Source: Oryzomonas sagensis (GTDB lineage Bacteria; Desulfobacterota; Desulfuromonadia; Geobacterales; Pseudopelobacteraceae). Taken from it: a stretch of DNA of 64,000 bases. Location of the stretch: assembly GCF_008802355.1 (NCBI RefSeq), contig NZ_VZRA01000001.1, positions 1,296,525-1,360,524 on the forward strand, read 5' to 3'. The notes below the pieces were generated by a model, which was not told the DNA's origin, ran no database searches, and saw only the letters and a program-made list of their open reading frames with translations. Of this stretch, positions 51,982 through 54,930 are shown one piece after another. Position numbers and translations under genes: made by a program. Each line of letters begins with the position of its first letter. Within the stretch, counting starts at the first letter, position 1.

Positions 51982-53064
51982 ATGTCAGATACAACCATTC
52001 GGGACCGCGGGGCGGGCGCCATCATGGGCGCCTTTATCGGCGATGCACTGGGGCTGGGGCCGCACTGGTATTACGACCTTGCCGAACTGCGCCATGACTA
52101 CGGCGAATGGATCAGCGGCTATACCGACCCCCGGCCCGGCCGCTACCACGACGGGTGCAAGGCGGGCCAACTCTCCCAGGCCGGTTTCATCCTCAGACTG
52201 CTGGTCACATCGTTGGTGGAACGGGGTGGGTACGACGAGGCCGATTTCTGCCGTCGCATGGATAAGGAGCTGCTGCCGCTCCTGGATGGCACCCCCATGA
52301 GCGGGCCGGGGGGCTACACCAGCCAGTCGATCCGCGAATTGTGGCGGCGGCGCGTGGAGCAGAAACTGCCCTGGGGCGAGACCGGCGGGCATGCCGACAC
52401 AACGGAAGCCATCGAACGCACCCTGGCCCTGGGGGTACGGTATGCCCTGGACCCCGCCCGACTGGCCGGCGCCATCACCGGCAATGCCGTCCTGACCCAG
52501 TCGGACGATACGGTGGTGTCCATGACCGTGGCCTATGGTGCGGTGCTGGGGCAGGTGGTGCAGGGGCACGCCCTGGATGCCCGGCTATCGGGCAGGTTGA
52601 TGAAGCTGGTGCATGACGGGGCGCTCCCCTTCCACGCCGTTACCGGCGACAACCTGCAACCTCCCCGGCCCGGCGATCCCGATCCGCCCCGGGCCGGGAG
52701 GTTCGCCTCCCCCGACGCCCTGCTGACCCCGTCGTACATGGCGAGTGCGGCCGCCGACCCTGATATCCGTATCGAACCCGCCTGGAAGGTGTCCATCGTC
52801 TACGGCATGCCCTGTGCGATCTACCACCAATTGCCCGCGGCCTACTATCTGGCTGCCCGTTTTCACGACGATTTCGAATCGGCCCTGCTGCATGCCGTCA
52901 ACGGGGGAGGGCAGAATCAGGCACGGGCCATCCTGACCGGAGCCCTGGTGGGCGCCCAGGTCGGCCTTTCCCGGATACCGCGGCGCTTCCTGGACGGTCT
53001 CGATGACTCCGCCGCCCTCTGCCGGCTGGCCGCCGATCTGGCTGCGGGTGTTGGTAAGCCATAA
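51982..53064 (+). CDS. ADP-ribosylglycohydrolase-fold protein with altered metal site
   Basis: 360 residues. The N-terminal GAIMGAFIGDALGLG and the late AVNGGGQNQARAILTGALVG show the DraG/ARH fold. In active enzymes the late motif reads GGDTDT, whose Asp bind Mg2+; here the four positions are Q-N-Q-A. The early TDDT motif appears as YHDGC, and an SDDT occurs later. Either the metal site is lost or substrates differ, as in J1-crystallin-like members. AGGAGG precedes the ATG. No DraT partner is nearby; the hydrolase-OsmC gene follows by 28 nt. Confidence 0.85.
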   Translation: MSDTTIRDRGAGAIMGAFIGDALGLGPHWYYDLAELRHDYGEWISGYTDPRPGRYHDGCKAGQLSQAGFILRLLVTSLVERGGYDEADFCRRMDKELLPLLDGTPMSGPGGYTSQSIRELWRRRVEQKLPWGETGGHADTTEAIERTLALGVRYALDPARLAGAITGNAVLTQSDDTVVSMTVAYGAVLGQVVQGHALDARLSGRLMKLVHDGALPFHAVTGDNLQPPRPGDPDPPRAGRFASPDALLTPSYMASAAADPDIRIEPAWKVSIVYGMPCAIYHQLPAAYYLAARFHDDFESALLHAVNGGGQNQARAILTGALVGAQVGLSRIPRRFLDGLDDSAALCRLAADLAAGVGKP

Positions 53065-53092
53065 CGCCGCAGGAAAACATGAGGTGATAGTG

Positions 53093-54325
53093 ATGAACAC
53101 CAAGAGGATTGCCTTTCCCAATAGCCGGGGGGAGCTGCTTGCCGCCCGGCTGGAACTCCCCGAGGACGAACGGCCCCTGGCCTACGCCCTGTTTGCCCAC
53201 TGCTTCACCTGCTCCAAGGATCTCACGGCGGCGGTGCACATCTCCCGCGCCCTGAGCAGCCGGCGCATCGCCGTGTTGCGTTTCGACTTCACCGGCCTGG
53301 GGGAGAGCGAGGGGGAGTTCGCCGCCACAACCTTCTCCTCCGAGGTGAGCGACCTGGTGGCGGCGGCCCGTTTCCTGGAACAGGAGTATGAGGCCCCCCG
53401 GCTGCTCATCGGCCATTCCCTGGGGGGGGCGGCCGTGCTGGCGGCGGTGGCGGAGATCCCCTCGACCGTGGCCGTGGTCACCATCGCCGCCCCGTTTCAT
53501 CCCGACCATGTGCGGGGCTTGCTGGGAGAGGCGGCGGAACGGGTCGAGGAGACCGGACAGGGAACCGTCACCCTCGAGGGCCGCACGTTCACCATTCGCA
53601 AGAGCCTGCTGGACGACCTGGCTGCCCATCGGCCGGAGGATACGTTGCGCCGGCTCAATGCGGCGCTGCTGGTGATGCACTCGCCCCGGGACCACGTGGT
53701 GGGGATCGACAACGCCACCGACATCTATCGGACAGCCCCACACCCCAAGAGCTTCGTCTCCCTCGATTCGGCCGACCACCTGCTGTCCGATAGCCGGGAC
53801 TCCCGCTACGCCGGCGGGATCATCGCCGCCTGGGCCGGCCGCTACCTGGGGATATCCGAAACGCCGGGCCCCCACCCTATCCCCCCGGAGGCGATCGACA
53901 ACCGTGTGTCGGCCCGCACCGGGGCGGGGGGATTTCGCACCGAGCTGTTTGCCAACGGTTTTCCCCTGCTGGCCGACGAGCCGGTGGAGGACGGCGGGGG
54001 CAACGAGGGCCCCTCCCCGTACGACTACCTGCTGGTCGCCCTCGGCGCCTGTACCGGGATGACGCTCCAGGTGTATGCCCGCAGCAAGGGATGGCCGCTG
54101 GAAGAGGTTGTGGTGCGGCTCTCGCACCGCAAGGTCCACGCCGAAGATTGCCGTGACTGTGATGAGAAGGAACGCCGGATGGATACGTTCGAGCGGGAGT
54201 TGGAACTGCATGGTGGGCTGGACGAGGCACAGCGGCAACGCTTGCTGGAGATCGCCGGGCGGTGCCCGGTGCACCGCACCTTGACGGCAGGGGTGCGGGT
54301 CGTGACCACCCTGCGGCCGGTCTGA
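53093..54325 (+). CDS. Alpha/beta hydrolase-OsmC fusion protein
   Basis: 410 residues. Residues 1-255 are an alpha/beta hydrolase with nucleophile motif GHSLGGAAV, oxyanion region AHCFTCSKD and catalytic His in DSADHLL. Residues 270-410 are an OsmC/Ohr-like domain with redox Cys in LGACTGMTLQVYA and GRCPVHRTL. OsmC domains reduce organic peroxides, so the fusion may both hydrolyse and reduce lipid-derived esters or peroxides. GAGGTG lies 6 nt before the ATG. Probably cotranscribed with the ADP-ribosylglycohydrolase-like gene. Confidence 0.92.
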   Translation: MNTKRIAFPNSRGELLAARLELPEDERPLAYALFAHCFTCSKDLTAAVHISRALSSRRIAVLRFDFTGLGESEGEFAATTFSSEVSDLVAAARFLEQEYEAPRLLIGHSLGGAAVLAAVAEIPSTVAVVTIAAPFHPDHVRGLLGEAAERVEETGQGTVTLEGRTFTIRKSLLDDLAAHRPEDTLRRLNAALLVMHSPRDHVVGIDNATDIYRTAPHPKSFVSLDSADHLLSDSRDSRYAGGIIAAWAGRYLGISETPGPHPIPPEAIDNRVSARTGAGGFRTELFANGFPLLADEPVEDGGGNEGPSPYDYLLVALGACTGMTLQVYARSKGWPLEEVVVRLSHRKVHAEDCRDCDEKERRMDTFERELELHGGLDEAQRQRLLEIAGRCPVHRTLTAGVRVVTTLRPV

Positions 54326-54367: not shown

Positions 54368-54401
54368 GGGCCGGACTGCCGTTTTACTTGCAGTCCGGCC
54401 C
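54368..54401. terminator. Terminator between convergent genes
   Basis: 12-bp perfect stem GGGCCGGACTGC with a 10-nt loop, between the hydrolase-OsmC gene and the riboswitch-controlled gene. Usable from both sides. Confidence 0.75.
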
Positions 54402-54418
54402 CATGCGGTTGCGGTCCG

Positions 54419-54712
54419 TTAGTCCCTGTGGTGTTTGTCTTTATGCTCGTGCTTCTTGTAGTGTTTCTTGTAGTGTCCTTTGTGTTTGCCCCAGTCGTGC
54501 CGTTCTCCCCGTTCGTGGGTGATGACGCGTTCCCGCTCCACAACGACCGTGCGGGGGGCAAGGGGCGGTGGCGGCGGTGCGCCGACCTGCACCCGCACGT
54601 TGGGGGTGTTGACATCCACACCCACCGCCACGTCGGCCGCGCCGGCCACGGTTGCCATCGTCATTGCCCCGGCCACTGCCCCGATGATTGCTTTCATGCC
54701 ATACCTGTTCAT
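54419..54712 (-). CDS. Exported His/Lys-rich small protein under riboswitch control
   Basis: 97 residues. Signal peptide MNRYGMKAIIGAVAGAMTMA with cleavage likely after VAGA. The mature part has a short beta-like segment (VAVGVDVNTPNVRVQVG), a Pro run, then VVVERERVITHERGE and a tail very rich in His and Lys (HKGHYKKHYKKHEHKDKHH). It has no heme CxxCH. Periplasmic or extracellular; the tail could bind metal or polyanions. AAAGGA lies 8 nt before the ATG. The leader carries a GEMM-I riboswitch and terminator, so a cyclic dinucleotide controls expression. Confidence 0.75.
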   Translation of the reverse strand: MNRYGMKAIIGAVAGAMTMATVAGAADVAVGVDVNTPNVRVQVGAPPPPPLAPRTVVVERERVITHERGERHDWGKHKGHYKKHYKKHEHKDKHHRD

Positions 54713-54764: not shown

Positions 54765-54876
54765 GAAAAAAGCCGGGACGCCGAATATGGTGATAGTTCG
54801 GCATCCCGGCTGTCTCGGTGAGACCCTATGGGCTTTCCGTCCCACCCTCGCGGGTGGTTTAGTCTTATCGCGTATC
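54765..54876 (-). promoter_or_regulatory. GEMM-I (cGAMP/c-di-GMP) riboswitch with intrinsic terminator
   Basis: Read on the minus strand, the aptamer spans 54876-54792: GATA (P1), AAGACTAAACC, a stem CCACCC-GCGA-GGGTGG with a GNRA loop, GGACGGAAAGCC, then GGTCTCACCGAGAC, AGCCGGGATGCCG and TATC (P1). This is the GEMM-I layout. The base equivalent to G20 of the c-di-GMP-sensing aptamer is A (54863), as in Geobacter 3',3'-cGAMP-sensing variants. AGCCGGGATGCCGAA also forms the 5' arm of a 15-bp terminator (54771-54811) followed by six T. Ligand binding should hide this arm and switch the gene on. Confidence 0.9.
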
Positions 54877-54901
54877 TGCTGCCTGATGTTGAAACAGCGG
54901 C

Positions 54902-54930
54902 ATTATAGAGGACAAATCTGCCCGCGTCAA
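54902..54930 (-). promoter_or_regulatory. Promoter of riboswitch transcript
   Basis: On the minus strand TTGACG, 17 bp, TATAAT, a near-consensus sigma70 promoter. Predicted start near 54895, about 19 nt before the aptamer. Confidence 0.85.

Follow-up and report, generated by a model that had tools for sequence, protein, structure and literature searches.

A predicted cGAMP-type GEMM-Ib riboswitch preceding the gene for a small, putatively secreted protein in Oryzomonas sagensis

The 64,000-nucleotide stretch of Oryzomonas sagensis DNA analyzed here, referred to below as the window, carries on its minus strand a GEMM-Ib riboswitch that is very likely selective for 3',3'-cGAMP and very likely switches on the transcription of a single gene, encoding a 97-aa protein. 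Judged from its sequence, the switch adds a further case to the established GEMM-Ib (3',3'-cGAMP) class, with a predicted ligand that is probably cGAMP. The switch type is thus known, and its repeated pairing with the family of the 97-aa protein may be new. The host is apparently an iron reducer from paddy soil; O. sagensis Red100 is described in PMC7285026 as one of three iron-reducing isolates. The features of the locus are as follows.

54902..54930, minus strand: sigma-70-type promoter, with TTGACG at 54930-54925, a 17-base spacer, and TATAAT at 54907-54902
54873..54876, minus strand: P1 5' strand GATA, pairing with 54795-54792
54797..54873, minus strand: GEMM-I (c-di-GMP-I) aptamer, RF01051, from Rfam cmscan
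54863, minus strand: ligand-selective base A, at RF01051 model position 11, equivalent to Vc2 G20
54801, minus strand: C equivalent to Vc2 C92, within the terminator 5' arm and invariant in alignment A2
54792..54795, minus strand: P1 3' strand TATC, partner of 54873-54876
54766..54811, minus strand: intrinsic terminator, with arm AGCCGGGATGCCGAA at 54811-54797, apical part CTATCACCATA, arm TTCGGCGTCCCGGCT at 54785-54771, and a T run at 54771-54766
54419..54712, minus strand: controlled gene, encoding the 97-aa protein, with a signal-peptide-like start and rich in proline and in His/Lys

Aptamer and expression platform

The first-pass annotation had proposed a GEMM-I aptamer with A at the base aligned to G20, preceded by a minus-strand promoter, and had named an Rfam covariance search as the check. 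When this search was run with cmscan on the whole 64-kb window, RF01051 was the sole Rfam match above the gathering score, at 54873..54797 (minus), with 44.8 bits against a gathering score of 35 (E 1.6e-5, model positions 1-87 of 87), which supports the proposed aptamer. A covariance model built from the aptamer's own kin (R1, made from 26 A20 aptamers with that of the window included) gave it 108.3 bits. For numbering, we take RF01051 model position 11 to be Vc2 G20 and 54801 to be Vc2 C92, so that the C at 54801 is presumably the ligand-pairing base, as C92 is in Vc2. The covariance alignment places an A (54863) at position 20, in agreement with the first-pass annotation. A misset alignment at this base was considered and rejected, since the covariance alignment and the flanking pairs C12-G37 and U13-G36, invariant in A2, fix its place. 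In fold and covariance match the aptamer is like the Vc2-type c-di-GMP-I aptamers of RF01051, whereas it differs from them at position 20, where A replaces G, and at the P2 foot, where C12-G37 and U13-G36 stand in place of the G-C and C-G of the RF01051 consensus. In the same alignment, P2 carries a GCGA (GNRA) loop, which in a GEMM-Ib aptamer would dock into P3.

Alignment A2 holds 26 of 31 aptamers in 25 distinct rows; the 5 G20 aptamers were left out, so A2 is no test of base 20. The core bases are invariant across these 26 A20 aptamers. Paired cells make up 94.7% of A2, compared to 92.3% in shuffles (0 of 500 reached the observed value) and 33.7 to 43.5% when the partners were slid. Compensatory changes were found at 6 of 25 pairs, compared to a shuffle mean of 2.5, with 2 of 500 shuffles getting to 6. 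Two of the four P1 pairs have such changes, and the P1 variants include GATA/TATC and GGTA/TACC, among others, with 85% of the cells paired. The window pair G41-A70 is nonstandard, a point against the preferred reading. P3 did not appear when the window RNA was folded by energy only, and the aptamer therefore rests on the covariance evidence.

The promoter at 54930-54902 agrees with the consensus at 11 of 12 positions, which confirms the TTGACG-17-TATAAT arrangement of the first-pass annotation. Promoter-like sites numbered 2 in the 1001 bases scanned, with a shuffle mean of 0.3, and TTGAC was seen by eye in all 12 of the upstream stretches of aptamers that were examined, as presence only and regardless of spacing. 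Further upstream on the minus strand there is a 60-codon open reading frame (55170-54988) with a promoter-like site at 55276-55248 and no Pfam match.

The aptamer 3' strand, 54811-54797, doubles as the 5' arm of the terminator. The terminator region of the window folds with -29.7 kcal/mol, and folding of the full window RNA gives the terminator as the structure of lowest energy. The 142-nt RNA has a fold z-score of -4.3, with 0 of 200 shuffles equally stable. The hairpin is missing from the list of a simple terminator scan with a loop limit of 8; its apical part, at 11 bases, is probably too long for that limit. As the RNA grows, its minimum-energy fold changes over to the terminator at a length of about 118 to 128 nt. 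The same architecture recurs: a terminator hairpin built from the aptamer 3' strand was found for 27 of 29 A20 aptamers, at -18.8 to -35.3 kcal/mol, when the RNA was folded up to the first T run. The two set aside were L020, where the 80 nt searched contain no T run, and L013, where the script settled on an early T run that was not the right one. The C92-equivalent is paired within the terminator in 25 of the 27 and unpaired in L023 and L030.

Because the terminator shares the aptamer 3' strand, the two folds are mutually exclusive, and the ligand should permit transcription. This computation, together with the same competition between aptamer and terminator in the cGAMP-responsive pilM ON switch of G. 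metallireducens (PMC9262584), supports the ON-type transcriptional control that had been proposed at the outset. RNA polymerase would start near 54895 and make the aptamer, in which cGAMP, if present, would be held by A20 (54863) and C92 (54801). Bound cGAMP would keep the 3' strand in the aptamer, the terminator would not form, and the 97-aa protein, presumably secreted, would be made. In the ligand-free RNA, 54811-54797 would pair with 54785-54771 and transcription would stop at the T run.

The closest known systems are the Geobacter GEMM-Ib switches (pgcA/GSU1761 and Gmet_0970/pilM), with which the window switch shares A20, the C92-equivalent, the overlapping terminator, the ON logic, and the GNRA loop on P2. 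As in the pilM switch, there is a U-G pair at the P2 foot (U15-G38 in pilM, PMC9262584); the same paper gives C75 as the pilM counterpart of C92. In contrast to the Geobacter switches, which precede a cytochrome or pilus gene, the target in the window is a 97-aa protein lacking a haem motif, and the ligand of the window switch is predicted.

The controlled gene and the targets of A20 aptamers

After its signal-like start, the 97-aa protein reads VGVDVxTPNVRVQVGxPxPPPPP, followed by VERERVI and a His/Lys tail; the supposed mature part of 72 residues contains 9 His. It has no Pfam or NCBIfam match at E values up to 0.1, and 18 members of its family (alignment A1) gave only weak matches to these libraries, 1 to 3 members each, with a best E of 0.0082. 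The predicted structure has a mean pLDDT of 57.5 and a single helix at residues 3-19, the rest being without predicted structure; in this model the helix would fit a signal peptide.

Homologues of the family were found in 43 of the 97 genomes searched, with that of the window included. Among the best 30 of 46 matches (L021 to L050, the window's being L021), a GEMM-I match is present at 12 loci and lies directly before the gene at 11; at the other, L031, it precedes a 311-aa open reading frame that ends 59 bases upstream of the homologue. The remaining 18 of the 30, for one of which (L045) the upstream DNA lay outside the scan, have no GEMM-I match, which, like the position at L031, weighs against the preferred reading. 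A scan of named genomes added L081, L089, and L095 with both switch and gene, the L081 aptamer being identical to that of L028. The switch therefore stands directly before a family gene at 14 distinct loci in four or more genera (g1, g6, g8, and g13), and all 14 aptamers have A20. Among the matches listed, neither the titles and abstract beginnings on Oryzomonas nor those on GEMM or cGAMP report the locus, and the word riboswitch does not occur in the Oryzomonas paper PMC7285026. The link between this unnamed, putatively secreted family, present in at least four genera, and a kind of switch associated with cGAMP gives a functional lead for the family. Downstream, at 54368-54402, a GC-rich hairpin lies between the riboswitch-controlled gene and a convergent alpha/beta-hydrolase-OsmC gene (53003-54325) and is possibly a shared transcription end; its coordinates were counted by eye, and it is absent from the terminator scan list.

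The genome (3,609,742 bases in 18 contigs) contains at least 20 GEMM-I aptamers, 15 with A20 and 5 with G20, a minimum because 150 of 278 first-look candidates were scored. The 15 A20 aptamers belong to 12 transcription units, of which three have a tandem pair (L010/L013, L014/L012, and L017/L015). Their first genes, from a survey of up to six reading frames per locus, are listed below.

97-aa protein of the window; 117-aa and 380-aa proteins, both without a Pfam match
A pair of fn3/Big-domain paralogues, one of them running off a contig end; the scan covered the complete copy
L,D-transpeptidase-SPOR protein, followed downstream by another transpeptidase
PT-repeat protein; PMT-type glycosyltransferase; fn3 protein; DUF4382 protein; beta-barrel protein

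Apart from L006, which has no clear target, the G20 aptamers of the genome precede genes for CheW, a CheY-like receiver, a C39-peptidase-like protein, and an fn3 protein. The last of these (L003, 1501-1576) has a GEMM-Ib-like backbone with G20 and an altered core, GACAGAAAATCC. The one before the CheY-like gene (L004, 1501-1580) lacks a T run in the next 80 nt, and from its 3' end, GTAAGA, the C92-equivalent is apparently T. At L020 (1501-1575), where an A20 aptamer likewise has no T run within 80 nt, the stem may control translation or may have decayed.

The first-pass annotation had also placed the switch in the control of extracellular electron transfer, which these targets do not support. 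It is unlikely that the switch governs this process and that the small protein helps electrons to leave the cell. cGAMP switches do govern metal-reduction-linked genes in Geobacter sulfurreducens (PMC6456294), and the Oryzomonas type strains are iron reducing (PMC7285026). However, CXXCH is absent from the 97-aa protein (54712-54419), which has no known domain and does not read as the cytochrome, pilus, or other electron transfer protein expected of an exoelectrogenesis regulon, and no multihaem gene opens any A20 unit: a first gene with more than one CXXCH was found in 0 of the 12, with the L011 gene running off a contig end and the L020 target ambiguous. Multihaem genes nevertheless exist in the genome, which has 41 matches to PF09699. 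One of these, C2:467015 (+), is some 350 bases away from the L005 switch, but the two are on opposite strands, so that it is not the target of this switch. Electron transfer as the default reading was therefore rejected on the gene content of the A20 units, and an A20 riboswitch alone does not imply electron transfer genes.

It is possible, although we propose it only tentatively, that in Oryzomonas the cGAMP regulon has the cell surface as its site of action and involves no cytochromes, and that the 97-aa family is a new, dedicated cGAMP-induced surface factor, which would, for instance, bind mineral, metal, or matrix. The members of such a regulon would be the L,D-transpeptidase lipoprotein operon, the fn3/Big-domain secreted proteins, the DUF4382 lipoprotein, the beta-barrel protein, glycosyltransferases, and the small cationic His-rich secreted protein. 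By description alone, the transpeptidase operon recalls GSU0181-0183 of G. sulfurreducens (PMC6456294), which according to the same paper is down 16-fold without gacA.

Ligand preference

With A at 54863, the window aptamer lacks the G at position 20 that marks GEMM-Ia. By computation, it has the features of GEMM-Ib, namely, A at position 20, a C as the C92-equivalent, and an ON-type platform that shares the 3' strand. In the Gmet_0970 aptamer, changing A20 to G flips the selectivity from cGAMP to c-di-GMP (PMC6456294). In a survey of 141 genomes of the order, including that of O. sagensis, the backbone NCTMAACCNNNNGYRANNNNGGGRCGGAAAGCC was found with A at 857 sites, spread over 123 genomes, and with G at 13 sites, in 12 genomes; C or T did not occur. 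The reversed control pattern gave 0 matches, and the pattern is strict, finding 12 of the 15 A20 aptamers of the O. sagensis genome.

We also examined whether the genome encodes a candidate source of cGAMP. There are 24 GGDEF matches, from which 17 distinct proteins were classed by the motif GHxxG[D/S], with 6 of the 24 loci left unclassed by it. Three of the 17 (L061, L062, and L065) have the Hypr-type serine, the place of which we took from PleD and which agrees with the alignment to 6d9m. This serine marks Hypr enzymes (PMC8835794). L062 combines a receiver-like N terminus with a GGDEF domain, and its closest solved chain is 6d9m, with 231 bits compared to 152 for the next and with the serine aligned. 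The 6d9m chain, an endolysin fusion, is taken to be the GacA GGDEF construct of PMC6456294. The genome thus encodes a GacA-like Hypr GGDEF protein, by its sequence a candidate cGAMP synthase.

A20 by itself does not exclude c-di-GMP as the ligand. According to PMC9262584, position 20 contributes to selectivity but does not act as a hard filter, and an A-type aptamer in PMC9481103 is reported to have gained affinity for cGAMP while its affinity for c-di-GMP fell perhaps only slightly. For the switch upstream of omcST, sensing of both dinucleotides is reported (PMC6456294), which speaks against exclusivity for cGAMP. A relaxed ON switch that answers c-di-GMP, or both c-di-GMP and cGAMP, in the cell would draw on the first and last of these precedents and on position 34 (54840), which is A in the window and in L030, the remaining 12 of the 14 orthologous aptamers having G there. 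This position is A in all 5 G20 aptamers of the genome, which counts against the cGAMP reading. However, the 15 A20 aptamers of the genome have A in 7 and G in 8, so A34 is no marker of the G20 type. The near fixation of A in the backbone (857 sites, compared to 13 with G), the candidate synthase, and the roughly 1200-fold cGAMP selectivity reported for the pgcA switch (PMC6456294) likewise stand against a relaxed switch, which we consider quite improbable. The idea of a plain terminator or decayed aptamer free of ligand control, in favor of which folding of the full RNA yields the terminator as the lowest-energy structure, is hardly credible in view of the invariant core bases in 26 aligned aptamers, the compensatory changes in A2 pairs, and the retention of the arrangement in at least four genera.

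A20G exceptions and tandem arrangements

A selective cGAMP switch remains our preferred reading for the window, and the sites in the order at which position 20 differs form a second lead. The 13 natural A-to-G exceptions in the GEMM-Ib backbone (L118 to L130) occur in 12 of the 141 genomes. The near-fixed A with these exceptions makes single-base ligand switching testable in nature. They are the more surprising lead of this analysis, and the link to the unnamed secreted family is its useful part.

Tandem riboswitches that act as Boolean gates are described in PMC9481103. The window switch belongs to the same aptamer family, and the O. sagensis genome has three A20 tandems, whereas the window switch itself is single. 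At five loci in other genera, L121, L122, L123, and L124 (genus g17) and L127 (genus g19), an A20 aptamer is followed by a G20 aptamer before one gene. These tandems lie at about 1270-1580 in gene orientation, and each aptamer is followed, as seen by eye, by a GC-rich terminator-like hairpin and a T run. With each aptamer having its own terminator before a single gene, the arrangement predicts a cGAMP-AND-c-di-GMP gate at the five loci. The genes at L121 to L123 are closely similar, so these loci are not independent. Table 2 of PMC9481103 contains no A20/G20 pair. Two other arrangements occur among the exceptions: at L118/L119, A20 and G20 switches lie about 1 kb apart before different genes, and at L129/L130, two G20 aptamers stand in tandem.
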